NCBI RefSeq assembly: GCF_900109785.1 | Contig: NZ_FOBH01000003.1 | Location: 62,001-126,000 of the forward strand | Direction: 5' to 3' | Length of the DNA: 64,000 bases | Source of the DNA: Nitrosovibrio tenuis | Lineage (GTDB): Bacteria > Pseudomonadota > Gammaproteobacteria > Burkholderiales > Nitrosomonadaceae | Shown here: positions 3,266-37,425 of the stretch, piece by piece | Layout of the letters: the number at the start of each line of letters is the position of its first letter | Numbering within the stretch: position 1 is the first letter of the stretch | Position numbers and translations under genes: made by a program | Notes under the pieces: generated by a model | The model's input: only the letters and a program-made list of their open reading frames with translations | Told to the model about the DNA's origin: nothing | The model's database searches: none

Positions 3266-3566
3266 GGGATTTCCTCCTAAGCTCAAAATCATAGCCCCGG
3301 TTTGTCCACTAGACCGTCTGAACTGTCTATTTGACGGGGAAGCTTAGGGTTTTCCCAGAGTCAGCCTCGTCATCAATACGCTTGTAATCCTTTTCGGGTT
3401 ATCTATATTGAATTAACCGATGATGGTTGAGTGGCCGCGGCGGGTTTGTCTGCGGAACGATAACCATGCCGGGAGGTTCTCTGTTAGAGACAGCTGGCGT
3501 AATGATTACATCGAGAAAGCGAGAAGGCTCAACATTGGCAGGAAAAATGACAAGACTGAGCATGTG
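3266..3566. other. intergenic region upstream of the class III aminotransferase
   Basis: About 300 bases between the small minus-strand frame and the chosen aminotransferase start. It contains repeated AGACCGTCTGAACTGTCT-like sequence near 3310-3335 with partial dyad symmetry, which could be a regulator site. The aminotransferase frame stays open back to an ATG at 3420, but the residues in between do not resemble the family. Nothing else is recognised. Confidence 0.4.
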
Positions 3567-7399: not shown

Positions 7400-7446
7400 T
7401 TCAACCATTGCTGCCGGGCTTCACGCCCTCCGGTAAAGATACGTTC
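7400..7446 (-). pseudogene. 47-bp degenerate copy of the tyrA 3' end
   Basis: This 47-base segment matches 40 of 47 bases without gaps to 13639-13685 inside tyrA, in the same orientation. Its minus-strand frame reads ERIFTGGREARQQWLKN against ERIFAEAREARRQWLKS in TyrA. It lies just downstream of the DegT gene, so the glycan operon plus the lpxA-like gene are bracketed by tyrA-end sequence. It has no start codon and is a remnant, not a gene. Confidence 0.65.
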
Positions 7447-7486
7447 ATAGTCATCCTATGAACTCAGATAACACTTCAACGAAAAT

Positions 7487-8602
7487 CTAGGCTTGAGCCG
7501 GACGGCGCCGTTCGAAGACCTGTATCCAGTTCGCGATGTGTGCGACCGTTTCTTCGAGCAATTCGGGGTAGATAGGCAGAGCTAGCACTTGGGCGGCCAA
7601 ACGCTCGGCCTGTGGTAGCGCCAAGCTCGCATGGAATGCCGAAAAAACGGGCTGCAAATGACAGGGTATGGCATAAAACACGCCAGTCGCAATACCCTGT
7701 TCAGCCAGAAATACCTGTAGCGCATCACGTTGTGGATGGGTAACGACAAACTGGTGGTAGACCGGCACGCTGTTCTCAAGGGGCGTCGGCCAGCGACAGA
7801 CGGTATCGCGTAAGGCAGTTTGGTATTGTGCGGCGATTTGCCGTCGCTGTGCATTCCAACTGTTCAGGTAAGGAAGCTTGACTCGCAAAACGGCTGCCTG
7901 AATTTCGTCGAGGCGGCTGTTGTAACCGATTTCGCCATGCCGATAGCGGCTTTCCCGGCCATGATTTCGCAGGCGGCGCAGCCGTTTGGACAAGGCTGGG
8001 TCATTACAGGAAATCGCACCGGCATCGCCGTAAGCTCCGAGATTTTTAGTCGGGTAGAAGCTGAAAGCTCCGGTGATGCCGAACGATCCAACGCCGCCAC
8101 CGCGATATCGTGCCCCGATGGCCTGCGCCGCGTCTTCGATCAACCACAGGCCGTGCCTCGCACAGAGTTCTTGCAACGGCGCCAGATCAGCCGGTTCTCC
8201 AAAAAGATGAACAGCAATAATTGCTTTCGTTCGCGAAGTCAGGGCGCGTCGAATACTGTCGATATCGATGTTGTAACGCCGGGATGAGCAATCGGCAAAA
8301 CGCGGCTGCGCCCCTGCCAGACAAACTGCCTCCGCGGTGGCGAAAAAAGTAAAGCTGGGTACGATTACCTCATCGCCGACGCCTATTCCCAATGCCTTCA
8401 GCGAGAGTAACAGCGCATCGGTTCCGGAGTTGACGCTGATCACCTCGGCAACGCCTATATAGTCAGCAAGTTCACGTTCCAGCGCCTCGTTCTCGGCGCC
8501 ATCAATGAAATTGCCGCTCGCAAGCACGCCCTGGATTGCCGCGTCGATCTCGCCGCGCAACTGCCGGTACTGACTACCCAAGTCTAACAGCGGCACTGTC
8601 AT
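7487..8602 (-). CDS. DegT/DnrJ/EryC1/StrS-family sugar aminotransferase
   Basis: A 371-residue PLP enzyme of the family that transaminates nucleotide-activated keto-sugars. Visible marks are SVNSGTDALLLSLKALGIG, DEVIVPSFTFFATAEA, the PLP-ring aspartate in LIEDAAQAIGA, and the Schiff-base lysine in FYPTKNLGAYGDAG, followed by RNHG and GYNSRLDEIQAAVL. It is the last gene of the minus-strand glycan operon; its ATG overlaps the stop of the Gfo/Idh gene (ATGA). An oxidoreductase followed by a DegT aminotransferase is the usual pair for making an amino sugar from a UDP-sugar, so the two probably act in sequence. Exact substrate unknown. Confidence 0.9.
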   Translation of the reverse strand: MTVPLLDLGSQYRQLRGEIDAAIQGVLASGNFIDGAENEALERELADYIGVAEVISVNSGTDALLLSLKALGIGVGDEVIVPSFTFFATAEAVCLAGAQPRFADCSSRRYNIDIDSIRRALTSRTKAIIAVHLFGEPADLAPLQELCARHGLWLIEDAAQAIGARYRGGGVGSFGITGAFSFYPTKNLGAYGDAGAISCNDPALSKRLRRLRNHGRESRYRHGEIGYNSRLDEIQAAVLRVKLPYLNSWNAQRRQIAAQYQTALRDTVCRWPTPLENSVPVYHQFVVTHPQRDALQVFLAEQGIATGVFYAIPCHLQPVFSAFHASLALPQAERLAAQVLALPIYPELLEETVAHIANWIQVFERRRPAQA

Positions 8603-9615
8603 TGTGCGCTTTCGAGTATTCGTTGCCGGATCCGCTGCGCCAAGCCAAGTGCCGCATAGCCATCTTCCGATGTAACCCTGGGCGCAGCGCGATGCCGGGA
8701 CGCGTCCAGGAAGGAAGCGAGCTGAAGACTCAGCGTGTCGTGCTCCACGCCTTCCGAAGCCTGCCCGGGAGATGCGGGGGCGGGGTTGCCGACATTGCCA
8801 AGGTTGCGGGACGAGTTGGCGGGTGCCATGTGATAGCTGGCTCGGCGATTAAAATCCATCATCCAGATTTCATTATTGTCCAGTTCCGCAATCATGTGCC
8901 GTTCTTCCTGTGCTGTGGCAGAGCCCCAATATGCGCTCAGGTGCGCGCGGCAGCCATTGGCGAGGACCAATTCAACTTGTGCTTCATCGATCGGGGTCAG
9001 GCCGTGGCTGAGGCCATAGGCGTCAAGTTCAATCAGCGGGCAGGCCACACCGTATAGAATCAAGTCAAGATCGTGGATCATCAAGTCGATTACTACATCC
9101 AGTGCACCGATGCGCGGCGGACGTTGTGTCGTACGTTTCGTCCGAATCGTACGGGCGCGGGGCAGCAATGCCGGGCCGGCCTTGAAAGCCGGATTGAAGC
9201 GCTCGATGTGACCGATCTGCAGAATGCAATTTTTTGCTTTCGCCAGCATTTGTAGTTCCATTGCCTGCGCCACGGTTTCCGCAATGGGCTTTTCAAGTAG
9301 TACGTCCAACCCGCGTTCGAGCAGTGCCTTGGCCAGTTCATAGTGCGAAGCGATGGGTGTTGCGACGGATACGGCGCCTACCGTGGATGGAAGATGGGCA
9401 ACGTGGCTGTACCAGGGTACGCCCAGTTGTTCCGCCAGGGATTGTGTCACCGGATCAGGATCGATCAACGCCTGTAACTGGCTACCGGCCAGCCGGGCGT
9501 AGCATAGCGCATGGCGGCGCCCGAAATACCCCGCGCCCACCACGGCGGTACCAATGGGAAGAATTGGTTCAGCGGCGCAGACCGACAGTGCGAGGTTACC
9601 GGCGATCTGCTTCAT
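8599..9615 (-). CDS. Gfo/Idh/MocA-family NAD(P)-dependent oxidoreductase
   Basis: A Rossmann-fold dehydrogenase of 338 residues. The nucleotide-binding motif is VVGAGYFGRRHA near the N-terminus; the catalytic-type EKPIAETV is present, and IDLMIHDLDLIL falls where family members have substrate-binding residues. I chose ATG 9615 because it overlaps the stop of the upstream gene as ATGA; the frame itself extends 38 residues further back into that gene. Members from glycan clusters oxidise the 3-hydroxyl of UDP-sugars to provide the substrate for a DegT aminotransferase, and that partner follows immediately with another ATGA overlap. Role in amino-sugar synthesis is therefore likely but not proven. 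Confidence 0.85.
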   Translation of the reverse strand: MKQIAGNLALSVCAAEPILPIGTAVVGAGYFGRRHALCYARLAGSQLQALIDPDPVTQSLAEQLGVPWYSHVAHLPSTVGAVSVATPIASHYELAKALLERGLDVLLEKPIAETVAQAMELQMLAKAKNCILQIGHIERFNPAFKAGPALLPRARTIRTKRTTQRPPRIGALDVVIDLMIHDLDLILYGVACPLIELDAYGLSHGLTPIDEAQVELVLANGCRAHLSAYWGSATAQEERHMIAELDNNEIWMMDFNRRASYHMAPANSSRNLGNVGNPAPASPGQASEGVEHDTLSLQLASFLDASRHRAAPRVTSEDGYAALGLAQRIRQRILESAQ

Positions 9616-11480
9616 AGCTCGGCTAGCGACCATACGCCGAGTATTTTTCCGGTTTGCGGATTTTCCACAATGCGTGTTAACGGCACAGGAAGATTGAAAG
9701 GCGCCAGCATGAGATTCACTGAACGCCACTCCCCAGTCGTGATGTCGGTATTGACGCTAATGGTTTCATGGCTGGTCGCCAGCAGATATTTTGCGCCCGA
9801 GCGCCGGATGTTGGACAGAGCGTGCTCGATATCGGCAAGTGACAGGTGGATCAGGGCATCGCGGCAGAGTACGGCATCGCCTGGAGGTAATGGATCATTG
9901 ATCAGATCGGCAACCTCGAACTTCCAGTTTGCGCGCTGGTAGCGCCGGCGGTTCTCCTCGATCAGCGCGGGGACAATATCGACCCCGATATAGGCGTCCA
10001 CATCGATCTCAACATGCTGGCGCCAGTTGCAGTCGCCGCATGGGGCATCGACCAAGGTGCGAACGCCCAGCCGGGTAAGCACGGAGGGCAGTTCGCGGCG
10101 CAGCGCTTCGGTCCGTTCCAGTGTTGAGCCGGGGCCAGACCGGGACTCCGAATTCTGCCATGAATTATTTCGATATATCTGGCCGAATACCTTCGCACGT
10201 CCGCTTGGGGCATCATGATTGCCATGATCGGCACGCTTTGTCTGGTCTGCCCGGTGTCGTCGGTGTGTCCTTGTTTCAGTCAATGGCCGGTTCCATACGG
10301 CATGCTTCAATCGGGAGAGCGCAGTAACCACGGGCCAGACGCGCGAATTGTAAATTCGGGCCAGTGCAAGCTCAGCCTGCTCCGCGCGCAAGCGCTGCGT
10401 CGTGACTTCAGCTCGAGCCCGTTCCCGTTCATGTTCGGCCAAATGTCGGCCTTTGGTAAAGTCCGCAATCTGGCGGAGATAATCGCTCGCGGCGTGAAAG
10501 CGTGGGTCTGGGTGATGTCCGTTTACCGCATTTTTCTCTACAGGTGTGCGGTGCTGCGCATCGATTGCTTCCTGATAAACATGGATGATCTGATCGATCG
10601 CTTGCTCCATTCCGGCTTCTGATCGCGCACGTTGCGCAACTTCGCGCGCTCCGCTCGCGTCGTACCGGTCAAGTTCCGCTGTAACGGTTTCCACGGTAAT
10701 GGGATCACGCAGGGTGCGAATGCCAAAATTCAGCGCACGAAATTTATCGTAGTTGCCAGGTGTAACCATGCCACCGAGGCCAGCGGCGTCACAGGCGATC
10801 AGGCCAGTCCCACAGGCGAGCGCTTCCAGCGCGCAACGTGCTTTCGCAAATACGATGTCATACTGACCGAGAATCCGTTCAGGCCGGGCTTCGCTACGCC
10901 CGACGGAAAGTCCGATTGCATCGAGTTCGATTCCGCGGGTGGCACAAGCCTGGCGCAGGATTCCGAGGCAACCATTCTCACTGACGTAATTGCTGAATAC
11001 CACTGCGCGGCGGGGCGCTGCGGGCAGATCGTCGCGCAGCGTAAATCGTTGCAGATCGACAAAATTGCGGATCATTCGGATGTGCTCGGGTGAAACCCCG
11101 TGCATGCATTGCAAGCGCTCGCGGCAGAGATCATCAACTGCCACATATCGCTGTATGGTCGGAAAATGAGGCGCCATTTCTTCCCAGGGCAGCCAGCCGT
11201 GACAGAAGTAGACCGCCGGCGTTTGGGGAAAATGCAGCATGGCCGTCATTGCATCCATATGATGTTGACCATGAATGATATCCGGCGCCACCGTCAGCAA
11301 TCTGAGGTCGTCGATTACCGGGATAGTGGCCGCGCGTAATTCGTTCGCAACCGTTCCAAGCCGGGTGCTGTAGGCTATGGGTTGATGACCGCGCCGCAAC
11401 AGCGCCAGGGCAATATCCCGGACGTAAAGCTCCGAGCCAGCTCGGGTATCCAGCGTATTGTTGGTTATCAAAATTCTCAT
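9612..11480 (-). CDS. fusion of a GT4-like glycosyltransferase and a SAM methyltransferase
   Basis: The 622-residue product has three parts. Residues about 1-310 resemble a GT-B glycosyltransferase: MRILITNNTLDTRAGSELYV, DIIHGQHH, and the C-terminal-lobe region CALEALACGTGLIACD. Residues about 340-385 form a charged helical stretch, probably a coiled coil (HLAEHERERARAEVTTQRLR). Residues about 430-622 form a class I methyltransferase with the SAM motif LVDAPCGDCNW and the acidic GVDI. Together they could transfer and then methylate a sugar on the same glycan. It is seven bases downstream of the PIG-L-like gene and overlaps the Gfo/Idh start. The acceptor is unknown. Confidence 0.8.
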   Translation of the reverse strand: MRILITNNTLDTRAGSELYVRDIALALLRRGHQPIAYSTRLGTVANELRAATIPVIDDLRLLTVAPDIIHGQHHMDAMTAMLHFPQTPAVYFCHGWLPWEEMAPHFPTIQRYVAVDDLCRERLQCMHGVSPEHIRMIRNFVDLQRFTLRDDLPAAPRRAVVFSNYVSENGCLGILRQACATRGIELDAIGLSVGRSEARPERILGQYDIVFAKARCALEALACGTGLIACDAAGLGGMVTPGNYDKFRALNFGIRTLRDPITVETVTAELDRYDASGAREVAQRARSEAGMEQAIDQIIHVYQEAIDAQHRTPVEKNAVNGHHPDPRFHAASDYLRQIADFTKGRHLAEHERERARAEVTTQRLRAEQAELALARIYNSRVWPVVTALSRLKHAVWNRPLTETRTHRRHRADQTKRADHGNHDAPSGRAKVFGQIYRNNSWQNSESRSGPGSTLERTEALRRELPSVLTRLGVRTLVDAPCGDCNWRQHVEIDVDAYIGVDIVPALIEENRRRYQRANWKFEVADLINDPLPPGDAVLCRDALIHLSLADIEHALSNIRRSGAKYLLATSHETISVNTDITTGEWRSVNLMLAPFNLPVPLTRIVENPQTGKILGVWSLAEL

Positions 11481-11487
11481 AGCGCTC

Positions 11488-12342
11488 TCATTGCTGCTGA
11501 TCCGCGGGTAGGGCGGCCGGTATTCTTGCGTAGAGCCGATTCATCAGTGGCAGGATATGCTCGCGGAAACGGATGACGCACTGGTAGCGGCCGGCTGCAA
11601 CCTGTTTTTCCCCATAAGTTTCGTAAAAGGGTTTTGCTTGCGTGAAGCTCTGTTCCAGCGCTTGCTTCGGCACAGGAGCCCTAAACAGGTACTCGCAGGC
11701 GAACGCATGTTCGCCGTAAGTATGGAACGCATGTTCAATTTCCTGCTGCAGCTTTTCTCCTGCGCTGCTCGCATAGTCCCGTATCGTCTCCAGCTTGTGC
11801 TTGAACTGCAACGGGATCAGTTCGATCGTATGGCGTGCAATTGCACGAGGTGCTGTCTGAGCATTTTCCCCGTCCCGCGCGGCCTGGCGCGGATCACCCA
11901 TCAGGGGAAAAGTGTAGTGCCGGGTTATGGGATGTTTTTTTTTGTTGGCGATGGCGACCGCCGCCTGGACCAATACTTCGCACAAATCATGAGTCGGGTT
12001 GTAGCCCTCCATGGCATCGCTGACAACGATATCGATGTCATAAGTGACGATGAGTCTTGCCAGACGCTTGCACAACCTGTCGAACAGATAATATTTATGG
12101 TGCAGTATTTTTTCGTAAATCCGGCGATCGCTGAGTTCGCCGCAGATGGGTCCGATCTCTGCTCCCAACGCGCGCAGGACGTCAAGGGTTTTGTCCAGCC
12201 TGGGCACGCCTTCGCCGCCAGACCCATCGGTAAGAATGCAGATCACAGGTTGTACCTGGTCAATCCAGCCGTAGAGGCGCAGCTCATGTCCAGGATGGCT
12301 GATTACGAGCAAACTGCGTTTGTCCGGCATAAGGTTTATCAC
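11488..12342 (-). CDS. PIG-L/LmbE-like protein with an altered metal motif
   Basis: The 284-residue protein has the layout of PIG-L deacetylases, zinc enzymes that remove acetyl groups from N-acetylglucosamine residues. The N-terminal motif, normally (A/S)HPDDE, reads SHPGHE (H16-P-G-H19-E), so the residue used as catalytic base is glycine and the usual aspartate ligand is histidine. The second histidine region is EGYNPTHDLCEVLVQAA, which looks normal. It may belong to a subfamily with a different metal site, or be inactive. It starts inside the stop of the preceding small gene (ATGA overlap) and is seven bases from the glycosyltransferase gene, so it belongs to the glycan operon. Confidence 0.7.
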   Translation of the reverse strand: MINLMPDKRSLLVISHPGHELRLYGWIDQVQPVICILTDGSGGEGVPRLDKTLDVLRALGAEIGPICGELSDRRIYEKILHHKYYLFDRLCKRLARLIVTYDIDIVVSDAMEGYNPTHDLCEVLVQAAVAIANKKKHPITRHYTFPLMGDPRQAARDGENAQTAPRAIARHTIELIPLQFKHKLETIRDYASSAGEKLQQEIEHAFHTYGEHAFACEYLFRAPVPKQALEQSFTQAKPFYETYGEKQVAAGRYQCVIRFREHILPLMNRLYARIPAALPADQQQ

Positions 12343-12611
12343 GAAACCTTTATATTCAGAGTATGTGGAAGATAGACCCGGGTCCGGAATTTTGCCGTCG
12401 CGTTGGGTAGCACCTCGAATACATGCGCAGTCTCCACAATATCGAAAAACAGCGCCTGCTGATGTGCATTGATCGGGTGCGTCAATGAGATTCTCAGGCT
12501 ATATTTGCCAGCAGTTAGCGGAAGCGAGGTTCGGTAGATGATCCCGGCCTGTTGTTTCGAAGCCAATGTCAGTAACTCCTGACCTTGCATCGGAAAGTCA
12601 GCGCCCATCAC
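12339..12611 (-). CDS. Wzt C-terminal-domain-like fragment
   Basis: This 90-residue frame (GTG 12611, second start ATG 12608) reads like the C-terminal sugar-recognition domain of Wzt, the ATPase of O-antigen ABC exporters: IIYRTSLPLTAGKYSLRISL, then ALFFDIVETAHVFEVLP. There is no ATPase domain and the frame is blocked by TAA a few codons upstream, so it is either a stand-alone glycan-binding module or the remains of a deleted wzt gene. In favour of expression is the ATGA overlap with the PIG-L-like gene, which suggests coupled translation. No wzm permease is present nearby. No clear ribosome site is seen. Confidence 0.55.
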   Translation of the reverse strand: MMGADFPMQGQELLTLASKQQAGIIYRTSLPLTAGKYSLRISLTHPINAHQQALFFDIVETAHVFEVLPNATAKFRTRVYLPHTLNIKVS

Positions 12612-12756
12612 CGAGGTTCGATTTTATCGCAAAATCTTATAGTTAACTGAAAATGTACACGTGCGGACGGTTTCGCTGATCCATATAGTTACCTGTTGCC
12701 CGAATTCCGCTGAACAGACCGGGTGACAATTATCATCCACCATTTCGGCATATTCC

Positions 12757-13539
12757 ATGAATGAAAACAGGATTCATCAAACGGCAATTATTCATCCCGG
12801 AGCCCGGTTGGGCATGGGAGTCACTATCGGTGCGTATTCCGTCGTAGGAGAATACGTCGACATCGGGGACGGCACCCGGATAGGGTCGCAGGTTATCATA
12901 ACCGGCCATACCCGTATCGGGCGCGAAAATCGTATTTTCCCGTTCTGCTCGCTGGGAGATGAACCTCAGGACAAGAAATACGGCAATGAGCCGACGAAAC
13001 TGGAAATCGGCGATCGCAATACCATTCGAGAGTTTTGCACCTTTAACCGCGGCACCGCTCAGGGCGCCGGGATAACCCGGTTGGGAAATGATAACTTCAT
13101 GATGGCCTACGTTCATTTGGCGCACGATTGCCGGGTTGGTAATTACACCACCTTCACAAACAATGCTTCGTTGGCCGGCCATGTGCAAGTTGGAGACTAT
13201 GCGGGTCTGGGTGGATTCACTGCCGTTCATCAATTCGTTCGCGTGGGCGCCTATAGCTTTACCGCTATGGGCACCGTGCTAACTCAGGATCTGCCACCGT
13301 ATGTTCTCGCAGCGGGTAACACAGCTAAACCTCATGGTCTCAATCTAAGGGAACTCAAGCGCAGAGGTTTTTCGGAAGAAACCGTCATTGCATTGAAACG
13401 CGCATATAAGTTGGTTTATCGATCCGGACTTGCTTTAAAGGAAGCAGAATCCCGGATTATGCCGTTAGCGGCTGATGTACCGGAAGTCCGACATTTTCTT
13501 GATTTTATTCATGTACGCGGTCGAGGCATTATTCGTTGA
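12757..13539 (+). CDS. lpxA: acyl-[ACP]-UDP-N-acetylglucosamine O-acyltransferase (LpxA-type)
   Basis: The 260-residue product is a left-handed beta-helix protein with hexapeptide repeats (PGARLG, GAYSVV, GSQVII) and the LpxA signature: LGDEPQDKKYGNEPTKLEIG, REFCTFNRGT, and the catalytic-type histidine in MAYVHLAHDC. LpxA performs the first step of lipid A synthesis in the cytoplasm. The gene stands alone: lpxD, fabZ and lpxB, its usual partners, are not adjacent. It is transcribed away from the glycan operon and converges on tyrA. It could be the only lpxA of the genome or a second copy that acylates another amino sugar made by the neighbouring DegT pathway. Ribosome site weak. Confidence 0.85.
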   Translation: MNENRIHQTAIIHPGARLGMGVTIGAYSVVGEYVDIGDGTRIGSQVIITGHTRIGRENRIFPFCSLGDEPQDKKYGNEPTKLEIGDRNTIREFCTFNRGTAQGAGITRLGNDNFMMAYVHLAHDCRVGNYTTFTNNASLAGHVQVGDYAGLGGFTAVHQFVRVGAYSFTAMGTVLTQDLPPYVLAAGNTAKPHGLNLRELKRRGFSEETVIALKRAYKLVYRSGLALKEAESRIMPLAADVPEVRHFLDFIHVRGRGIIR

Positions 13540-27252: not shown

Positions 27253-27614
27253 GGGGGCGACCTGGCTTCGACGTGGGTTGCAAAGCAGAGCAGGGCATAC
27301 CGAGGACCAGTTACCTCGTAAATACATCTGGAAAACCATAGTCGCAAACGACGAACGTTACGCTCTAGCCGCTTAAATCCGGCTGGACTCCGCACCGGTG
27401 GGCCTCAACGCCGGGTTTGGCAACAGACAGCGGAGCCATTAACGAGGATCGCGCTCCATAGGGTTACTTTATAGAGCGTTAAACAATAGGTGACTCGCCT
27501 GTCATCAGCCCGCCGGTTGGCGGATGCCGGGTTAAATCAAATAACATGGCTAAGTATGTAGAACTGCCTGTAGAGGACTTGCGGACGCGGGTTCGATTCC
27601 CGCCGCCTCCACCA
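27253..27614 (+). ncRNA. ssrA: transfer-messenger RNA (tmRNA)
   Basis: The 362-base RNA rescues stalled ribosomes. The 5' end GGGGGCG pairs with CGCCTCC of the 3' end, which finishes in ACCA. The start contains the conserved GGCGACCTGGCTTCGACG, and the 3' T-arm is GCGGGTTCGATTCCCGC. The tag frame runs from the resume codon GCA at 27344 to TAA at 27376 and encodes ANDERYALAA. The 3' end is the insertion point of the adjacent integrase-bearing island; the CCA and acceptor stem are intact, so the integration preserved function. Confidence 0.96.
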
Positions 27615-27681: not shown

Positions 27682-27721
27682 GTTGTCCAAACACGTCCAA
27701 ACTCGGCTGTTGCAATCCGAC

Positions 27722-27774
27722 GGTAACTGACGGTAAACTTGACGGTAATCGACTTACCGGCAAATGGAGTTACC
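27722..27774. repeat. GGTAA repeats between ssrA and the integrase gene
   Basis: Three spaced copies of (G)ACGGTAA lie in tandem at 27720-27750 (periods of about 10-13 bases), and an inverted GTTACCGTC copy lies at 27769-27777, overlapping the integrase ribosome site. Tyrosine integrases bind short direct repeats near their att cores, so these are candidate integrase arm sites and also possible autoregulatory sites for the integrase promoter. The same motif returns at 31810-32203 and 37331-37348. Confidence 0.6.
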
Positions 27775-27777
27775 GTC

Positions 27778-28997: not shown

Positions 28998-29615
28998 ATG
29001 AGCGACGATAACGCCCCTAATCTTTTTTCAGCCGAACAAGACCCTTGGGCGCTGCGCAAGCCTAATTGGGACATGTGGAAATCGGTTAAACAAGCAAGAC
29101 TTTGGCACGCTGTTGCACTGGCTTGCGATCTTGATCCGGGCAACTTCCAGCTTTTCCATAATCCTCAGCTCGCGAAGCTGTTAAAGGAACCTCCAAGGCA
29201 ATTTGACGACTTGCTTGTCATGGCTAAAGGCAGCATTGGAGCAAACGGTATTTTGAAACTAATTTCTCGAAGCAATGAAGGGTTGGAAGAAAGCGAGGTC
29301 AAGCTTTCGAACTTTGCCACTTGGCTTAAAAGCGTACAGCACAAACCTCCTGCACAATTCTCCTGGCTGCCCGAACCCGTCACTCTCAGTAACATGGATT
29401 GGCCGTGGGGCAGGCATGAAACCGATCTACTGCGGAAGCTCGCCGCTGCCGCACAGCGTTTCTGGAGTAACTACGATCCCACCGAGCCAAGTACAGCTCC
29501 TACTAATCAGCACGTCATTGACTGGTTAAAAGAGCAAGAGGTATCTGCACGCACAGCTGAAGTCATGGCAACCATTCTTCGTGCTGACCGTTTGCCGCCC
29601 GGCCCGCGTAAATAG
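28998..29615 (+). CDS. hypothetical island protein
   Basis: A 205-residue, probably cytoplasmic protein that starts eight bases after the integrase stop, so it is likely co-transcribed. The N-terminal part has a tryptophan-rich segment (WALRKPNWDMWKSVKQARLW followed by HAVALACDLDP) and the C-terminus ends in WLKEQEVSARTAEVMATILR and DRLPPGPRK. This C-terminal pattern looks like one I associate with small proteins in other integrative elements, but I cannot name a function. No signal peptide, membrane segment or enzyme motif is visible. Confidence 0.75.
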   Translation: MSDDNAPNLFSAEQDPWALRKPNWDMWKSVKQARLWHAVALACDLDPGNFQLFHNPQLAKLLKEPPRQFDDLLVMAKGSIGANGILKLISRSNEGLEESEVKLSNFATWLKSVQHKPPAQFSWLPEPVTLSNMDWPWGRHETDLLRKLAAAAQRFWSNYDPTEPSTAPTNQHVIDWLKEQEVSARTAEVMATILRADRLPPGPRK

Positions 29616-29759: not shown

Positions 29760-30011
29760 ATGGTTCAAGCAATCCTACGGCTTCCCGCCGTCAAGGCCGA
29801 ATCTGGCGCTTCGCGCTCAACAATTTATCTTCGCATCCAGCAAGGACTTTGGCCCAAGCCTGTAAGACTTGGCCCACGCTCGGTGGGTTGGCCCGCTAGC
29901 GAAGTTGCCGCTATCAATACTGCCCGTATTGCAGGGATGACTGATCAGGAAATCCGCACCTTGGTAATCAAGCTGGAAGCTGCTCGCAAAGCTGCTGCTA
30001 GTGCGTTTTGA
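29760..30011 (+). CDS. AlpA-family transcriptional regulator
   Basis: This 83-residue DNA-binding protein contains an excisionase/MerR-like helix-turn-helix: LPAVKAESGASRSTIYLRIQ, followed by GLWPKPVRLGPRSVGWPASE and the recognition-wing-like VAAINTARIAGM. AlpA proteins are regulators or excision factors of P4-like elements. Start ATG 29760 has AGAGG upstream. The 144 bases before it are free of genes and probably contain its promoter. It is followed after 10 bases by the DUF927 gene. Confidence 0.88.
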   Translation: MVQAILRLPAVKAESGASRSTIYLRIQQGLWPKPVRLGPRSVGWPASEVAAINTARIAGMTDQEIRTLVIKLEAARKAAASAF

Positions 30012-30021
30012 GGGGATAACA

Positions 30022-31788
30022 ATGCAAAACACCAGTAGAGCGCAAGTCACTGTGCTAACACCCCGGCAGAACTCAGCTAATCCGCCCATAGCCTCATGCC
30101 GCTATGGTGGCGGGCGGTTCGAACTGTCGGAAATGGGTGTGTACTTCCTTGGTAAGGACAAGGACGGCAACGAGCAATCGCCACAATGGGTTTGCACACC
30201 TTTACACGTCATCGCCAAAACCAGGGACGAGAAGAACGGGGAATGGGGGCGGCTACTGGAATGGCAGGATGATGACAATCACATCCATCAATGGCCGATG
30301 CCGCTTGAACTCTTGGAAGGAGATGGCTCTGAGGTGAGGCGCGAGCTTGCCCGTCTTGGGCTGCATATCTCGCCTAATCAGTCAGCACGTGGCCTGCTGG
30401 CTGCATACATCAAGCTATGGTCAGTAGAGGCCAGAGCGCGTTGTGTAGATCGTTTGGGCTGGCACGGCAATATTTTTGTTACTCCTAGCGGTTCGATTGG
30501 CGACGCTGAAGAACTTGTCGTGTTTCAAAACTCACATGCGATTGAGCCCGCTTATATCGAGTCAGGCACGGCAGATGAATGGCGAGATTCTGTCGCAGCT
30601 TTGGCGGCAGGAAACACGCGGCTGGTATTTGCTCTTTCTGTAGCTTTTGCTGGCGCATTGGCTGAAGTTGCAGGTGAAGACTCCGGCGGTTTTCATTTGC
30701 GCGGCGCTTCATCTTGTGGCAAATCCACTGCATTGAAGCTGGCTGCTTCCGTATGGGGCAATCCCTCAACTTATGTGCGCCTATGGCGCGGGACAGTCAA
30801 TGGATTAGAAGCATTAGCAACGCTGCACAACGACAGTTTGCTGATTCTGGATGAGATCGGGCAGATAGACCCGAATGATGCCGGAGAGGCGGCATACCTT
30901 CTGGCAAATGGTCAAGGCAAGGCAAGGGCGTCACGCAATGGACTTGCCCGTTCAGCCCAACGCTGGCGGCTGCTGTTCCTGAGCGCAGGCGAAGCATCCC
31001 TTTCCGCTGTCATGGCGCAAGCAGGCAAGCAATCAACTGCCGGACAGGAAATCCGCCTTGCCGACGTAGAAGCCGATGCTGGCGCGGGTATGGGAATATT
31101 TGAGACGTTGCATGGACATCCCAACGCCGCTTCACTGGCGTTAGCAATCAAGGAAGCTTCTGCTAAGTATCATGGCGCTACGGGCAAGGAATGGTTGCGT
31201 TACCTCGTAGCGAATCATGCGAGCCTTGTAAGCCTCCTCGAAGAGGAAATCAAGCGATTCGTAACTGCGGTAGTACCGGCGAATGCGGCAGGGCAAGTAG
31301 GGCGGGTGGCCCGGCGCTTTGCACTGGTTGCCATAGCAGGTGAACTTGCGACTCACTCTAACTTGACCGGCTGGCTGGAAGGTGAGGCTACTCAGGCGGC
31401 CCGCAAGTGCTTTACCGCCTGGATGGAAGCCTTTGGCGGGTGTGGCAACCGCGAAGAACGCGCGATACTTGCCCAGGTTCGCGGTTTCTTCGAGATACAC
31501 GGCGCAAGCCGCTTTGAAGATATAGGCGCGACAATCGACCTGCGTATTCATAAACGAGCAGGCTTTTACCGGAACGGGACAAATGAGGGGCGCGAATTTT
31601 TGGTATTGCCTGAAACATTTTGCAATGAAATATGCCAAGGCTTTGACGAAAAGACCGTCAAGAAAACTCTGATACAAGCGGGATTGTTGCTTCCCGGTAA
31701 GGACAAGAAGCCCTCACAGGTTGTACGACTCCCCGGATTGGGTTCATCCAGAGTCTATGTTATCCGGTACCGGGATGGGGAGGAGTAA
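30022..31788 (+). CDS. DUF927-domain ATPase, helicase-like replication protein of the island
   Basis: The 588-residue protein contains a P-loop ATPase core with Walker A RGASSCGKSTALKLAASVWG (about residues 231-250) and a Walker B-like LLILDEIGQIDP. This is the DUF927 arrangement, described as related to superfamily helicases and found on phages, plasmids and satellites. The start ATG 30022 has AGGGG seven bases upstream; the frame itself opens at GTG 30001 inside alpA. Because it is followed directly by an origin-like repeat region (31810-32203), a role as initiator or helicase of episomal replication is a reasonable inference. No primase domain is recognised. Confidence 0.85.
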   Translation: MQNTSRAQVTVLTPRQNSANPPIASCRYGGGRFELSEMGVYFLGKDKDGNEQSPQWVCTPLHVIAKTRDEKNGEWGRLLEWQDDDNHIHQWPMPLELLEGDGSEVRRELARLGLHISPNQSARGLLAAYIKLWSVEARARCVDRLGWHGNIFVTPSGSIGDAEELVVFQNSHAIEPAYIESGTADEWRDSVAALAAGNTRLVFALSVAFAGALAEVAGEDSGGFHLRGASSCGKSTALKLAASVWGNPSTYVRLWRGTVNGLEALATLHNDSLLILDEIGQIDPNDAGEAAYLLANGQGKARASRNGLARSAQRWRLLFLSAGEASLSAVMAQAGKQSTAGQEIRLADVEADAGAGMGIFETLHGHPNAASLALAIKEASAKYHGATGKEWLRYLVANHASLVSLLEEEIKRFVTAVVPANAAGQVGRVARRFALVAIAGELATHSNLTGWLEGEATQAARKCFTAWMEAFGGCGNREERAILAQVRGFFEIHGASRFEDIGATIDLRIHKRAGFYRNGTNEGREFLVLPETFCNEICQGFDEKTVKKTLIQAGLLLPGKDKKPSQVVRLPGLGSSRVYVIRYRDGEE

Positions 31789-31890
31789 GCGCATTATCGA
31801 TGTAACGACGGTAACACGGTAACATCCAATATGGGTTAAGTTCTTCGCGTAACTCCGATGTTACCGGGCTGTGCCCGCCGGTAACACATC

Positions 31891-32015
31891 TACCGTTACA
31901 GGAAATCTCCGCTGCATCGTATTCCCGTTACCGTTACAGGAAGTCGCCGCTGTATCGTATTCCTGTTACCGTTACAGAGAATCGTGACGCATTGCGACCC
32001 TGTTACTGTTACTCT
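31891..32015 (+). repeat. 38-bp tandem repeat, three full copies and part of a fourth
   Basis: Units start at 31891, 31929 and 31967, with the beginning of a fourth at 32004. Each begins TACCGTTACAG(G/A) and continues with a variable GC-rich middle, then TCGTATTC(C) in copies one and two. Copies one and two differ at a few positions; copy three has diverged in the middle. The conserved part of each unit is TTACCGTTACAG, spaced by about 3.6 helical turns. Confidence 0.85.
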
Positions 32016-32029
32016 TACAGTAACAGTAA
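32003..32029. repeat. 10-bp perfect inverted repeat at the end of the tandem array
   Basis: TTACTGTTAC (32003-32012) and GTAACAGTAA (32020-32029) are perfect complements separated by seven bases. The arms contain the same GTTAC element as the tandem units. It could be a protein-binding dyad or a hairpin at an origin. Confidence 0.75.
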
Positions 32030-32458
32030 ACCTTCCGCAACAGCCTATGCAGTTCAACTCTGTCTACTGCACGAGCACAGTCAAGCTAATATTGTTACCG
32101 CCATTACCGAGAATACTTCATATCGGTAACACTTAGCGGTAACGCGAAGGGCCGCATGGATTGAGCGATCCCCGCAAGCACATCAACTGTAACCGCTGTT
32201 ACCGATCAATCGGGGACTACTGGAGGTCAGTCAGCTTTCGTCACATTTTTGCATATGGTGACGGTCTACTCCCGACACATTTCTGCCTGTAGCGACAATC
32301 CCAAATCGACATATTCTGTTGACCCCCCGCTCTAGTTTGAAGGCGAATTTGCATCAATACAGCCATGTTGATTGAGGGCGATTACAATACACGTAAACCG
32401 TAACATTACGGGGGCAATCGCAAATGGAAATAATGGAGCTAATCTCGTAACCGAAATC

Positions 32459-34453
32459 ATGACCGATCCGACAAACAACACCAAAGAAACTGTTCTATCG
32501 CCAAACCCAGTGTTTGATCGCCGCGCACAACTGGCTGCGCTTATTCCCGAAGCATTTTCTGAGGGGACGCTGGATATTGCCGCGCTCAAACGTGCATTGG
32601 GCGGGGAAGCCATCATCGAAGGTGGCGAGCGTTACGCGCTCACTTGGGCGGGTAAGGCCAACGCCTATAAGGTGCTGCAATCCCCATCAACGGCTACGCT
32701 CCGACCGCAACGTGACTTGTCAGTGAATTTTGACGATGCACCGCATGTCTTCATTGAGGGCGAAAATCTGGAAGTACTCAAAGTGTTGCAGAAAGCCTAT
32801 TTCGGCAAGGTTAAGCTGATCTATATCGATCCACCGTATAACACCGGCTCAGATAGTTTCATCTACCCCGACCGTTTTCTCGAAAGCAAAGAAGACTACC
32901 TGCGCCGCATTAATGACTTGGCGGACGACGGTACGCTGATGCGCGAAGGATTCTTCCGCAAGAACAGCAAGGAAAACGGCCATTATCATAGCAACTGGTT
33001 GTCGATGATGCTACCTCGCCTGTACATCGCGCGTAACCTGCTGAGCGCGGATGGGGTGATCTTCGTGTCCTGTGATGACAACGAGATGCACAATCTGCGG
33101 TTGTTGATGAACGAGGTGTTCGGCGAAGAACATTTTGTTTCCCAGCTCGTTATTATCAACAATCTCAAGGGTAGAAACGACAAGAAAAACGTTGCAACTT
33201 GCCACGAGTACATGCTTGTCTTTTCGCGCAATGGATTCGAATCGTACGGGCTGCCGCTCACTCAAGAGCAACTCAAGAACTACAAGTACACAGACGCACG
33301 CGGTAAGAAATACGCCTTGCGCGACCTTCGGAAGCGCGGTTCTCAGGACCAGCGGAAGGATAGGCCGAAGATGTTCTTCCCGATCTTGTACAACGAAAGC
33401 ACGAAAAAACTCTCATTGACGCGGCAGTCTCCAGATGATGTAGAGATTCTGCCGAAGCGCGGGGATGGTAGTGATGGTCGTTGGCGTTGGGGTAAGGACT
33501 CGGTTCTAAAAAACCTGGGTATCTTAGAGGCGAGATATTCGGAATCAAAACGCCGGTGGGATGTGGACTATCGGATCTATCTTGAACCAGATGCAGCTGA
33601 GACAGAAATCGATGAAGAAGAAGACGATGATGACGAACTCTATGAGCGTACATCAAAGTCCAAGTCCTTTTGGAGAGGCGGTGAGATTTCCACAGACGTA
33701 GGTAAGCGCGAATTCAAGGAACTATTTCAAGGTGGATTCTTTGACTATCCGAAGTCTCCGTTTTTGATGCGGCGCATTATCCAGATGACCACACGTGGAA
33801 ACGATTTGATCCTGGACTTCTTTGCGGGAACTGGAACTATGGCACAAGCGGTCTTGGATATAAATCAGACAGAAGGGACTGCCCGTCGATTTGTTTGCGT
33901 CCAATTGCCAGAACTAATTGAACCCGAGAGTGACGCGGGGAAAGCCGGTTTTGGCACCCTCGCAGAAGTATGCCGGGAGCGGATTAAGCGGAGCATTAGG
34001 CACGTAGAGACTGCTGCTGACCTTGCCACCCCCTCTACGGCGAACCTCGGTTTCAAGTCCTTCCTTCTTACTCCCTCTAATTTCAAACAATGGCGTGGTG
34101 ACGGAATCGACTCAGCCGAGCAACTGGCCGAGCAGATGCAGGTGTTCGTCCAGACCGAGAAAGATGGCGCAGCGGTGGAGCACCTGCTCTACGAGCTGCT
34201 GCTGAAGTGCGGCCAGGAGCTAACCACGCCTGTAGAAACGCTAGATATGGCCGGTGGGCAGGTGTTCGCCATCCGTCAGCGCAATATGCTGTTCGTGTTG
34301 GCATCCTTCACTGAGGCCATGATCCAGCCGCTGGTGGATTTGAAGCCGCGTGAGATCATTGCTATCGACGGTGTGTTCCAGGATTCGGACTCGTTGAAGA
34401 GCAATCTGGACTTACAGTGCCGCGACATGGGTATCAAGTTCACTTGCCTATAG
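32459..34453 (+). CDS. mod: type III restriction-modification methyltransferase (Mod)
   Basis: The 664-residue protein is a beta-class DNA adenine methyltransferase. The catalytic motif LIYIDPPYNTGSD (motif IV) comes first and the SAM-binding motif DFFAGTGTMAQAVLDIN (motif I) later, with the variable target-recognition region between them. That region includes a very acidic stretch (EIDEEEDDDDEL). Mod gives sequence specificity and methylates one strand of the recognition site; with Res it forms the restriction complex. The ATG at 32459 is chosen by sequence character; the frame opens at 32372 and no strong ribosome site decides between them. The gene appears complete and is followed eight bases later by res. 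Confidence 0.92.
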   Translation: MTDPTNNTKETVLSPNPVFDRRAQLAALIPEAFSEGTLDIAALKRALGGEAIIEGGERYALTWAGKANAYKVLQSPSTATLRPQRDLSVNFDDAPHVFIEGENLEVLKVLQKAYFGKVKLIYIDPPYNTGSDSFIYPDRFLESKEDYLRRINDLADDGTLMREGFFRKNSKENGHYHSNWLSMMLPRLYIARNLLSADGVIFVSCDDNEMHNLRLLMNEVFGEEHFVSQLVIINNLKGRNDKKNVATCHEYMLVFSRNGFESYGLPLTQEQLKNYKYTDARGKKYALRDLRKRGSQDQRKDRPKMFFPILYNESTKKLSLTRQSPDDVEILPKRGDGSDGRWRWGKDSVLKNLGILEARYSESKRRWDVDYRIYLEPDAAETEIDEEEDDDDELYERTSKSKSFWRGGEISTDVGKREFKELFQGGFFDYPKSPFLMRRIIQMTTRGNDLILDFFAGTGTMAQAVLDINQTEGTARRFVCVQLPELIEPESDAGKAGFGTLAEVCRERIKRSIRHVETAADLATPSTANLGFKSFLLTPSNFKQWRGDGIDSAEQLAEQMQVFVQTEKDGAAVEHLLYELLLKCGQELTTPVETLDMAGGQVFAIRQRNMLFVLASFTEAMIQPLVDLKPREIIAIDGVFQDSDSLKSNLDLQCRDMGIKFTCL

Positions 34454-34461
34454 GGGTGCAG

Positions 34462-37251
34462 ATGAAGCTGCAATTCGATGCGAACCAGGACTACCAACTT
34501 GAAGCCATTCGGGCCGTGATTGCGCTGTTCGTGGGCCAGCCTGATGCCTCGCAGAACGACGTGCCAATGGTCGACGAGGGGCTGTCGAGCCTGAAGCTAT
34601 CTGAGGCCGGCGTGGCGAATCAGCGCGTAATTACCGACGAACAGTGGTTAATCAACCTTCAAGCGGTGCAGAGGGCGCACGGCATCGATCAATCGGACGC
34701 GCTAGAGCAAATGGAGTTGGACGACGGCACACCGGTCGGCACCTTCCCCAACTTCACAATTGAAATGGAAACAGGCACCGGCAAGACGTACGTTTACCTG
34801 CGCACCATCCATGAGCTTTCTAAGACTTATGGCTTCAAAAAATTTGTGATCGTGGTGCCCTCGGTTGCTATCCGCGAGGGCGTCGTCAAAAGCCTCAAAA
34901 TCACCAGAGAGCACTTCCAGACGCTCTACAACTATGAGCGTGTTGAGTTCACAGTATATGACTCGTCAAGGGTCAATCAACTACGCAACTTCGCGCTGTC
35001 GGACGCGATCCAGATTCTGGTGATCAACATCGATGCCTTTGCGAAAGATTCAACCGAGGTGAAGGGCAGCATGGATTTGGGGAAGGCAAAGAAAAAGGGC
35101 AAGGGCAACGTCATCAATCAGGTACGCGAGACAGGCGTGAAGCCCATCGAGTTCATCCAGGCGGCGCACCCCATCGTAATCTTGGATGAGCCGCAGAATC
35201 TGGAGACGGATAACCGCAAACAGGCCATCGCCCGGCTGATTCCCACGTGCACGCTACGCTATTCAGCCACGCACCGCAACGCCTACAACCTAATCTATTC
35301 TCTGGACCCGGTGCGGGCCTATGAGATGGGACTGGTGAAGCAGATCGGCGTGGATTCAGTAATCGAGCTGAAGGATGCTAACCAAGCTTTTGTCGAGGTG
35401 CAAGAGTTCAGAACGGCGGCACGTTCCGTGAAGGCAAAGTTGTCCATCTGGGTCAATCAGGCGCAAGGCCCAGCAAAGAAAAGCGTGACGGTAAAGAACG
35501 GGGATGACCTCTACGTCCTGTCGAACCGACGCGAGATTTACCGGGATAGCTTTATTGTCAACGAGATCGACGCAGGTGAAGGCTTCGTGACTTTTGCCAA
35601 TGATGTTCGGGTACGGGTGGGTAGCCCGCACGGCACACTGACAGATGCGATCTTGCGCTTGCAGATCGAGGCTACGGTCCGGCGCCACTTCGAGAAGGCA
35701 CAAAAATTACACCCGCTAGGCGTCAAGGTGTTGTCAGTGTTCTTCATCGACCGGGTTGCGAATTACCGCGTGTATGGCGAGGACGGCAGCGCTGGCAAAG
35801 GTAAGTTTGGTCAGTGGTTCGAGGAAATCTACGAACAGTACCGCACTAAGGACGATTTCGACGGCCTGTTCACGTTTGATGCTGCGAAGGTTCACAACGG
35901 CTACTTCTCGCAGGATAGGCGAGCCGTGTCGCCCTTCGAAACCGTCACAGGTAAGACCAATGCCGATGCCGAGGCCAGCACCTTCGAGTTGATTATGCGC
36001 GATAAAGAGCGACTATTGGACCTTGCCGAGCCGTTGGCTTTCATCTTCAGCCATTCCGCACTACGCGAGGGCTGGGATAATCCGAACGTATTCCAGATTT
36101 GCACGCTAGCCGAGTCCAGCTCAGATATCAAAAAGCGGCAGGAGATTGGCCGCGGCCTGCGCCTGTGCGTGAACAAGAACGGCGAGCGCGTGCGCGGTCG
36201 GGCTATCAACCGCCTGACGGTGATTGCGAATGAGAGCTACGAGGACTTTGCGAACCAGTTACAGACCGAGATGGTAGAGGCCGGGGTGAAGTTCAAGCGG
36301 GAGATGGTGCAGAACGAGCGTGATAAAGTGACGGTACGACTGAAGAAGGGATACGACGCCGACCATCCCGATAACCATTTCTTATCGCTATGGGAAAATA
36401 TTCGAGCGCGTACACGCTACCGCGTCGAGTACAAGACGAGCGACCTGATTGCCAAGGCCGTCAGCCGGATTAAGGACACGATGCCGCCCATGGAGCGGCC
36501 CAAGGTGGCGCTGACACGAGCCGACATTGTCATCGGCCCGTCCGGTGTGGTGAGCAAGCAGACGGGATTCCGCACTCAGAACGTGGAAAACAAGTATGTT
36601 ATGCCCGATTTCGTCGGGCAAGTACAGGGTAAGACGGGGCTAGCGAAGTCGACAGTCGCGCGTATTCTGCTCGATTCTGGACGACTGGAAGACGCGGTAA
36701 AAAACCCCCAAGCATTTGTGGATCGCGTGGCGGAACTGGTAAATGCCGTAAAGCGCGAATTTCTGGTGTACGGGGACGGTTCGGAGGGTAGTGGCGTCAA
36801 GTACGTAAAGCTGGCCAATGCGTTCTACGAGATGCGACACTTCGAGAACGACGACTTGATGGACGTGTTTGCATCCAACGTGCTGGCTGTCCAAAAGCAA
36901 GAGAAAACGCTGTTCTCCCACATTATCATCGACTCGAACTCTAGCCCGGAACGTCTGTTTGCGCAGGCCTGCGAGGACAACGACGACGTGCTGTTCTATA
37001 TCAAGCTGCCGCGTTGGTTCCAAATTGAAACACCAGTAGGCTCATATAACCCTGATTGGGCGCTTACCTACCGCAATGACAAGACACTGTACTTCGTGGC
37101 TGAAACAAAGAAAACAAACGGTGACCACGTTCGGCTAGACCTGCTTCGCCCTATCGAAGATTTGCGGATAGAATGCGGCAAGCGTCACTTCAAAAATTTC
37201 GAAGAGGTACAGTTCAGGGTAGTCAGTTCTCTAATAGAACTGGTTAGTTGA
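34462..37251 (+). CDS. res: type III restriction endonuclease (Res)
   Basis: The 929-residue ATP-dependent restriction subunit has a superfamily 2 helicase core: Walker A METGTGKTYVYLRTI, the DExx-type box VILDEPQNLE, and late helicase motifs including QEIGRGLRLCVN. A C-terminal PD-(D/E)xK-type nuclease is visible as NPDWALTYRNDKTLYFVAETKK split around the metal site (D in NPDW, E and K in AETKK). It cleaves DNA after translocation between two unmethylated sites. The start ATG 34462 has AGGGG five bases upstream and follows the mod stop closely, so they form one operon. No frameshift is seen, so the system looks functional. Confidence 0.93.
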   Translation: MKLQFDANQDYQLEAIRAVIALFVGQPDASQNDVPMVDEGLSSLKLSEAGVANQRVITDEQWLINLQAVQRAHGIDQSDALEQMELDDGTPVGTFPNFTIEMETGTGKTYVYLRTIHELSKTYGFKKFVIVVPSVAIREGVVKSLKITREHFQTLYNYERVEFTVYDSSRVNQLRNFALSDAIQILVINIDAFAKDSTEVKGSMDLGKAKKKGKGNVINQVRETGVKPIEFIQAAHPIVILDEPQNLETDNRKQAIARLIPTCTLRYSATHRNAYNLIYSLDPVRAYEMGLVKQIGVDSVIELKDANQAFVEVQEFRTAARSVKAKLSIWVNQAQGPAKKSVTVKNGDDLYVLSNRREIYRDSFIVNEIDAGEGFVTFANDVRVRVGSPHGTLTDAILRLQIEATVRRHFEKAQKLHPLGVKVLSVFFIDRVANYRVYGEDGSAGKGKFGQWFEEIYEQYRTKDDFDGLFTFDAAKVHNGYFSQDRRAVSPFETVTGKTNADAEASTFELIMRDKERLLDLAEPLAFIFSHSALREGWDNPNVFQICTLAESSSDIKKRQEIGRGLRLCVNKNGERVRGRAINRLTVIANESYEDFANQLQTEMVEAGVKFKREMVQNERDKVTVRLKKGYDADHPDNHFLSLWENIRARTRYRVEYKTSDLIAKAVSRIKDTMPPMERPKVALTRADIVIGPSGVVSKQTGFRTQNVENKYVMPDFVGQVQGKTGLAKSTVARILLDSGRLEDAVKNPQAFVDRVAELVNAVKREFLVYGDGSEGSGVKYVKLANAFYEMRHFENDDLMDVFASNVLAVQKQEKTLFSHIIIDSNSSPERLFAQACEDNDDVLFYIKLPRWFQIETPVGSYNPDWALTYRNDKTLYFVAETKKTNGDHVRLDLLRPIEDLRIECGKRHFKNFEEVQFRVVSSLIELVS

Positions 37252-37330
37252 CGGCTATCACGAACACTCAATTTGGAGTGACTAGGCTCGCGGCTTCGGA
37301 CTCGAACCCGAGCAACGCCTATAATGTGTC

Positions 37331-37348
37331 GGTAACTTTGACGGTAAC
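37331..37348 (+). repeat. GGTAAC pair at the right island end
   Basis: GGTAACTTTGACGGTAAC contains two copies of GGTAAC 12 bases apart and shares TGACGGTAA with the left-end repeats at 27720-27750. This is what integrase arm sites at the two ends of an element would look like. Confidence 0.55.
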
Positions 37349-37372
37349 TGAATATTCTCCAACTACAGTAAT

Positions 37373-37386: not shown

Positions 37387-37425
37387 CATTGCAGGGCATT
37401 ATTCAATTGACGCCGCCCAATAAGA

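Follow-up and report, generated by a model that had tools for sequence, protein, structure and literature searches.

A GGTAAC repeat array behind a DUF927 helicase gene as the probable replication origin of an integrative island at ssrA

The cluster of GGTAAC repeats that lies directly behind the DUF927 gene of an integrative island at ssrA is very probably an iteron-type replication origin of that island, loaded by the DUF927 helicase. It seems to be one case of a widespread helicase-linked origin in which the layout is kept while the words change. The initial annotation of this DNA had proposed an origin of an integrative element bound by the DUF927 protein, a proposal that gains from the conservation of the cluster in six ssrA loci and from the arrays found behind DUF927 genes elsewhere.

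If this reading is correct, islands with a DUF927 gene and such an array are replicons, which bears on their upkeep, multiplication, and movement, as well as on the reason for their cargo of restriction systems and other defence genes; the helicase together with the 0.4 kb behind it would be the expected minimal replicon. DUF927 genes are common in integrative islands, and the many lineages with the same layout and different words provide material on how a self-loading helicase picks its DNA, and on whether the number and orientation of the sites set one or two helicases. The result is made less surprising by the fact that SaPIs and PICIs already provide examples of an origin directly behind the initiator helicase.

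The ssrA island and its repeat array

The window, that is, the whole 64-kb stretch of DNA analysed here, corresponds to C13:62001-126000 of the 3.1-Mb genome of a soil ammonia-oxidising bacterium, the ssrA gene of which is the site of an integrative island of ~9.8 kb. A tyrosine integrase beside ssrA and an ssrA-end repeat on the opposite side mark it as an ssrA-targeted integrative island, with the order ssrA 3' end, integrase, ORF205, AlpA, DUF927, GGTAAC cluster, type III methyltransferase and restriction genes, and right end. Loci compared with the window are numbered with the prefix L, the seven from the same genus being L039–L045. The features of the island, in window coordinates, are as follows.

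27253–27614, plus strand: ssrA (tmRNA), target gene of the island (ARAGORN)
27592–27607, plus strand: attL core TTCGATTCCCGCCGCC, within the ssrA 3' end; 13 of 16 bases equal the attR core, by eye
27719–27749, plus strand: putative left arm sites, three GACGGTAA direct repeats 10–12 bp apart, conserved in L039–L043
27739–28989, plus strand: tyrosine integrase (Pfam Arm-DNA-bind_3, Phage_int_M, Phage_integrase)
27769–27777, minus strand: further GACGGTAAC copy (GTTACCGTC on the plus strand), just before the likely int ATG
28998–29615, plus strand: ORF205, kept in the same-genus relatives (L039–L043), L086, and L087, by alignment
29760–30011, plus strand: AlpA-family regulator or possible excisionase (PF05930, E=2.5e-13)
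30001–31788, plus strand: DUF927 helicase, 595 aa, without a primase domain, proposed replication initiator (PF06048, E=3.6e-100)
31802–32203, no strand assigned: proposed origin, iteron array with the word CGGTAACA in both orientations
32372–34453, plus strand: cargo, type III methyltransferase (PADLOC MTase_III, E=1.3e-158; PF01555)
34417–37251, plus strand: cargo, type III restriction subunit (PADLOC REase_III, E=1.8e-265)
37328–37350, plus strand: putative right arm sites GTCGGTAAC...GACGGTAACTG
37402–37417, plus strand: attR core TTCAATTGACGCCGCC, which matches TTCGATTCCCGCCGCC of the ssrA end at 13 of 16 bases

The integrase reading frame is listed from a TTG, the ATG at 27778 being the likelier start, and the repeats at the left end are putative arm sites of this enzyme, judging by their position and by its Arm-DNA-bind_3 domain. 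ORF205 has no match in Pfam, PHROGs, or NCBIfam, and its structure model is useless (pLDDT 45); it is conserved between integrase and AlpA in islands of this kind. Pfam identified no phage-interference, capsid, terminase, or packaging gene on the six ORFs of the island, and neither a P4 alpha primase-helicase nor sid/psu-type genes were found among the island ORFs by Pfam, PHROGs, or NCBIfam. No primase was recognised in the island. Megablast returned no plasmid relatives of the island as a whole, and the 19 phage records with a DUF927 match are, every one, below 60% identity.

Ten GGTAAC/GTTACC hexamers within about 400 bp directly after the DUF927 gene, as reported in the initial annotation, are indeed present; they span 394 bp (31810–32203), five on each strand, and the gene (30001–31788) ends 21 bp before the first of them. 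The 10-bp inverted repeat reported with them was read directly (TTACTGTTAC at 32003–32012 and GTAACAGTAA at 32020–32029), and is absent from the output of the repeat search, for which the minimum is 12 bp. The 38-bp tandem is also present, at 31891–31984 with 87% matches, but it consists of 2.5 units rather than of three full ones: the second unit matches the first at 89% identity, and of the third copy only 17 bp are recognised. The elements of the array are the following.

31802–31823, plus strand: left outer group, three GTAAC cores 9 and 8 bp apart, the second and third being full GGTAAC; both full hexamers kept in 6/6 same-genus relatives
31860–31865, minus strand: single inverted iteron, kept in 5/6 relatives
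31880–31885, plus strand: inner left iteron, kept in 6/6 relatives
31891–31984, minus strand: 38-bp tandem expansion with minus-oriented iterons, the variable middle of the array
32003–32029, no strand assigned: 10-bp inverted repeat
32094–32108, minus strand: inner right pair GTTACC and ATTACC, 9 bp apart, both GTTACC in relatives
32138–32143, plus strand: single inverted iteron of the right half, kept in 5/6 relatives
32189–32203, minus strand: right outer pair, the second GTTACC, the first degenerate here and GTTACC in relatives

The cluster is the densest repeat of the 64-kb window and ranks first among its 500-bp stretches, with 11 CGGTAA words in the 500 bp from 31801 versus six copies of any word in the best unrelated 500 bp. 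GGTAAC/GTTACC occurs 37 times in the whole window, compared with 15.8 expected (sd 3.9), and the maximum outside the cluster is two hexamers in any 400-bp stretch starting at a hexamer. The shorter core GTAAC is present in 19 copies from 31789 to 32371, and the pair CGGTAACNCGGTAACA has a single occurrence in the genome. Left and right groups embrace a variable middle with no AT-rich stretch between them: no 30-bp window of the array falls below 37% GC. No DnaA-box-like site (with at most one mismatch) lies between 28943 and 33153; such boxes are common in iteron origins but not universal. An RNA element, promoter, or terminator was rejected as an identity of the region, with no Rfam match in 31700–32460 and no promoter- or terminator-like site in 31700–32500 (sigma-70-like promoters: none found versus 1.1 in shuffles). 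Short repeats that are clustered, oriented, and conserved beside an initiator gene, as expected of an iteron origin, are found here.

A homologous cluster is located directly behind DUF927 in six of the seven same-genus loci (L039–L044), that of L044 behind a C-terminal remnant of the gene, while the seventh, L045, includes a DUF927 fragment of ~65 residues and no cluster. Absence of the repeats beside DUF927 in related islands had been named beforehand as an outcome that would count against an origin, and the cluster is kept in these six ssrA loci. Their alignment shows hexamers conserved on both sides and a middle rich in indels. All six relatives agree with the window at 53 of the 60 hexamer positions, compared with 108 of the 355 others (p=5e-16). 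Of the ten hexamers, eight are retained in five or six relatives, the copy at 31927 in four, and the copy at 32125 in none. The cargo that follows is variable: the type III systems of the window and L041 belong to different families, and L039 has other genes. In L041 (7595–12910), the ssrA island carries its different type III system and a PD-T4-2_A-like gene behind the array. L044 (G096) has lost integrase, AlpA, and most of DUF927, and keeps the DUF927 end, the whole array, the cargo, and the right end; it would be a stranded origin. In L042 and L043, the DUF927 reading frames are broken by in-frame stops or shifts and the arrays are still present, so that some islands look like decaying copies with arrays.

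The DUF927 protein and its known counterparts

An AlphaFold model of the DUF927 protein, based on 31 sequences, has a pLDDT of 84.9 and a pTM of 0.75. Its best Foldseek match is SCCmec Cch (5dgk; E=6e-22, TM 0.62/0.70), followed by SaPIBov1 Rep (8tch; E=1.3e-20), with MCM, RuvB, and SaPI5 PriRep1 next at ~1e-4. A sequence search picks the same two chains (8tch with a phmmer E=6e-13). The initial annotation had drawn a parallel with the helicase of P4-type satellites; the closest relatives are instead SaPIBov1 Rep and SCCmec Cch, and P4 alpha is not among the matches found. Model and Foldseek matches agree with the overall fold of a self-loading AAA+ helicase with a C-terminal winged helix, the latter being assigned from the order of secondary-structure elements in the predicted model. 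The NCBIfam Cch1 model (NF047345) is matched with E=4e-16 at 58.6 bits, under its cut-off of 700; judged from sequence, the DUF927 protein is homologous to Cch1 and is not the same protein.

When the window protein is compared with those of L088, L089, and L081, which have GGGACA-type words, conservation is lowest or close to lowest in the C-terminal part (50–56%, versus 70–80% in the ATPase part). In L086 and L087, where the word is GGTAACA as in the window, 61–66% of the C-terminal part is kept. This pattern fits a reading domain located there and is confounded by ancestry.

SaPIBov1 resembles the present island in having a homologous helicase with iterons directly behind its gene; the C-terminal domain of SaPI Rep is described as recognising the iteron origin directly downstream of rep, and Cch as containing DUF927 and being related to SaPIBov1 Rep (PMC7581432). 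The sequence similarity is only distant, however, and the host phylum is different. Unlike in SaPIs, no primase, phage-interference, or packaging gene is recognised here and the cargo is restriction-modification; words and layout also seem to differ from those of SaPIs. SCCmec Cch shares the same Pfam domain and provides the closest solved fold, but its family score is far under the cut-off, as given above. By the account of the 2020 paper, the SCC origin had not previously been identified, and the one that it tests is for Cch2, not for Cch (PMC7581432).

Gram-negative PICIs (EcCICFT073 type) have int, alpA, rep, and then ori, which in PICIs is described as lying immediately 3' of rep with two iteron sets around an AT-rich region; a rep-ori segment of a Gram-negative PICI supported plasmid replication (PMC6092414). 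The same succession of int, alpA, and rep followed directly by ori is found in the island, with the array as the proposed ori. In turn, the initiator of a Gram-negative PICI is fused to a primase (pri-rep), whereas here it is unfused, no phage-related cargo is recognised, and the AT-rich stretch between iteron sets is absent. The P4 iteron word GGTGAACA looks similar to the word found here. In the P4 satellite, too, an element-coded helicase acts at its cognate ori (PMC6092414), but the capsid-size, cos, and lysogeny genes of P4 are not recognised in the island, and P4 alpha is not among the matches. With none of their characteristic genes found in the searches given above, the island is, on its sequence, assigned neither to PICIs nor to P4-type satellites. 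Islands of the MGIVchHai6 and MGIVflInd1 type similarly include an HTH gene and a DUF927 gene, and differ in being mobilised by conjugative helpers; their DUF927 gene is reported as conserved and as not needed for mobilisation, and what cds8 of MGIVflInd1 does is described as elusive (PMC7449626). Iterons behind DUF927 in Proteobacteria are not described among the matches listed from the full-text literature outside subscription journals and preprints, as far as the text of those matches goes.

The proposed sequence of events would start with the integrase, probably together with AlpA, excising the island from ssrA in circular form. The DUF927 protein, as an AAA+ initiator helicase of the SaPIBov1 Rep or SCCmec Cch type, would bind the repeats with its C-terminal winged-helix domain at about residues 484–595, assemble into one or two hexamers, open the DNA, and start replication. 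Since it has no primase domain and no primase is recognised in the island, primase and polymerase would be supplied by the host. The halves of the array, opposite in orientation outside the variable middle, may load two helicases facing opposite ways.

Arrays behind DUF927 genes in other genomes

Searches for DUF927 relatives covered 125 genomes at family level, where 41 had a match, and, counting matches at E<=1e-80, 399 at order level (45 matching) and 369 at class level (11 matching); plasmid records were a further source. For 71 loci, the commonest hexamer in the 500 bp behind DUF927 was compared with 200 dinucleotide shuffles. This number leaves out the duplicates of longer loci (L001, L002, L007–L011, L036, L037, L046–L051, L059, and L076), the integrase-site loci L004–L006, the DUF927 fragment without a cluster (L045), and L091 and L092, which have no DNA behind the gene. 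Enrichment at p<=0.01 was found behind DUF927 in 43 of the 71, upstream in one, and inside the gene in none; at p<=0.05, the corresponding counts are 48, 9, and 3. With proteins clustered at 65% identity, 21 of 37 clusters include a member with p<=0.01 behind DUF927. L043 is counted among the misses because its broken frame misplaced the gene end, its cluster being real. A held-out set consisted of 25 new loci (L094–L118), from 398 genomes of the phylum with 39 matches, to which the frozen procedure was applied because the order rule given below had been formed on the first loci. Here, p<=0.01 was reached behind DUF927 in 10 of 25, upstream in two, and inside in none.

The 500 bp behind the gene stay below significance (p<=0.01) in 28 of the 71 loci and, held out, in 15 of the 25; some of these have displaced arrays, and none was found in L090 and L093. 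Of 20 long loci, 16 have their richest 400-bp stretch 0–2.3 kb behind DUF927 or overlapping the gene end, the exceptions being L085, L087, L090, and L093. L085 has six GTGACA words directly behind DUF927 (p=0.035), and L087 only four GGTAAC sites, as two facing 9-bp pairs (p=0.36). In L112, GGGAAC shows enrichment on both the upstream and the downstream side of DUF927 (p=0.005 each), which may point to a second array.

The unit itself changes from island to island. The repeated words include GGTAACA, GGGACA, GGGGACAA, GTGACA, GTGTGACA, GGAACA, and others, and the form GG..ACA fits many of them, not all. The initial annotation had centred on the GGTAAC unit; it is the repeat array behind DUF927 that recurs, whereas GGTAAC is not a general signature and other islands use other words.

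The layout was analysed in the 43 enriched loci. The commonest distance between same-orientation neighbours is 9 bp, with 105 of 227 cases among the neighbours listed, and 32 of 53 held out. All 12 sites of L088 form the mirror pattern +++ - ++ | -- + ---. Exact mirror symmetry was rejected as a universal rule, with p<=0.01 in only six of 43 loci, and these six are spread over quite different DUF927 proteins. An order rule, in which one inverted site stands between two tandem groups of like orientation, is satisfied by 18 of 43 loci, compared with 3.1 expected, and by 11 of 21 clusters versus 1.7, where the 65% cluster of the window is represented by L039, which passes, and L044 forms its own cluster. 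Among the held-out arrays, eight of 10 satisfy the rule, with 1.1 expected and none of 20,000 simulations as high. The window array itself misses both exact mirror symmetry (6/17, p=0.57) and the strict order rule, the latter because the 38-bp tandem fills the middle and the extra site at 32125 breaks the right half; L039, L040, and L041 satisfy the rule, and L042 and L044 fail it. In L088, the mirrored 12-site GTGGGACA array (3309–3520, oriented) lies inside a 200-codon ORF downstream of TOPRIM-DUF927, so that the array and a possible coding sequence overlap.

We can speculate that the DUF927 elements of Proteobacteria have one origin grammar that outlives its words, a joint claim that is tentative and, taken as a whole, somewhat doubtful. 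Its unit would be a module of six iterons spaced by one helical turn, mostly 9 bp, and ordered as three, one inverted, and two; the module would stand alone or be mirrored to twelve sites, with layout rather than sequence as the conserved signal. There would be one site per helicase subunit, a half module loading one hexamer and the mirrored form two head-to-head hexamers, and changes of the word together with the C-terminal reading domain would keep related elements compatible in each cell.

A second DUF927 gene of the host genome (locus L003, G000:C28:1-14000), 37% identical and accompanied by an integrase, is located near tRNA-Arg (8363–8438). No array lies directly behind it, and seven GGGACA words are found at 7433–7613, 2.2 kb behind DUF927 and beyond a cargo gene. 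None of 500 shuffles is as high, for a stretch that was preselected as the richest of the element, and two inner pairs mirror each other by eye. With GGGACA in this element and GGTAACA in the window, two elements of one cell appear to use two words. The cargo of L003 (5268–7082) resembles the PADLOC NsnA and PD-T4-2_A families, and GGTTGCAC repeats are present at both of its ends (913–945 and 8276–8294).

Circular relatives are also known. The 14.6-kb plasmid III of Legionella fallonii has a DUF927 protein 60% identical to that of the window, an integrase, a helix-turn-helix gene, and a TGGGACA array. Among its ten further annotated proteins, Pfam recognised none as a known plasmid initiator; three of these ten are without any Pfam match and the record is typed rep_cluster_113, so that another initiator on this plasmid is possible. 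At 9435–12799 of the circular L. fallonii plasmid (L081), an OLD-TOPRIM ATPase and a UvrD helicase lie side by side, as in Gabija-type defence. The circular plasmid pHS87b carries integrase, toprim, DUF927, and P2-type capsid genes; directly behind its DUF927 p=0.085, and six GGGAAC words, counted without shuffles, are found ~690 bp further on.

Alternative readings of the array

Binding of the array by AlpA, which as an excisionase or regulator would control cargo or element genes rather than replication, is unlikely, even though the AlpA gene overlaps the start of the DUF927 gene and AlpA is described as regulating a Gram-negative PICI (PMC6092414). The identity of AlpA tracks the word, being 84% in L086 and 75% in L087, both with GGTAACA, and 33% in L088 with GTGGGACA. 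It covaries with the word as that of DUF927 does, so that the reader protein may be either of the two. The array, however, sits behind DUF927 and not before the AlpA and DUF927 genes, and no sigma-70-like promoter is present in 31700–32500. An excisionase does not usually have from six to 12 or more sites with helical spacing and orientation. In SaPIs, the origin that the helicase recognises is described as occupying this same place (PMC7581432).

GGTAAC also occurs in arm-like arrays at both ends of the island (27719–27777 and 37328–37350), which were absent from the initial annotation, and GACGGTAACTG has three copies in the 3.1-Mb genome, two of them at the island ends. The shared word might suggest one binding protein, with the array serving as integrase arm sites or as a recombination enhancer, or being left over from a former end of the island, but L088 and L087 argue otherwise. 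L088, whose integrase remnant of 37 residues is 81% identical and whose right end has the same attR core and GGTAACT sites, has the internal GTGGGACA x12 array, whereas L087, with a 44% identical integrase at tRNA-Ser and other end repeats (by eye), has GGTAACA behind DUF927. Because the end and array words change independently in these two loci, integrase sites were rejected as a general explanation; the array, moreover, follows DUF927 in loci with quite different integrases, and for the window this origin of the repeats is highly improbable.

Iterons commonly have second roles such as copy control, and the middle of the array is expanded and variable, but a maintenance or copy-control site (partition-like, incompatibility, or handcuffing) beside an origin located elsewhere has very little probability: none of the island's six recognised genes is a partition gene, and the window contains no second repeat cluster that compares with the array. 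ORF205 was likewise rejected as a general reader of the word, since tblastn, over the loci for which all window proteins were compared, found it only in L039–L043, L086, and L087.

The attR-like core is present also at the right end of L040, L041, L042, L044, and L088, with none at the place read in L039. In the latter, the region 9860–10010 near the right end resembles a second left-end arm region rather than attR, which hints at a tandem or remnant element.
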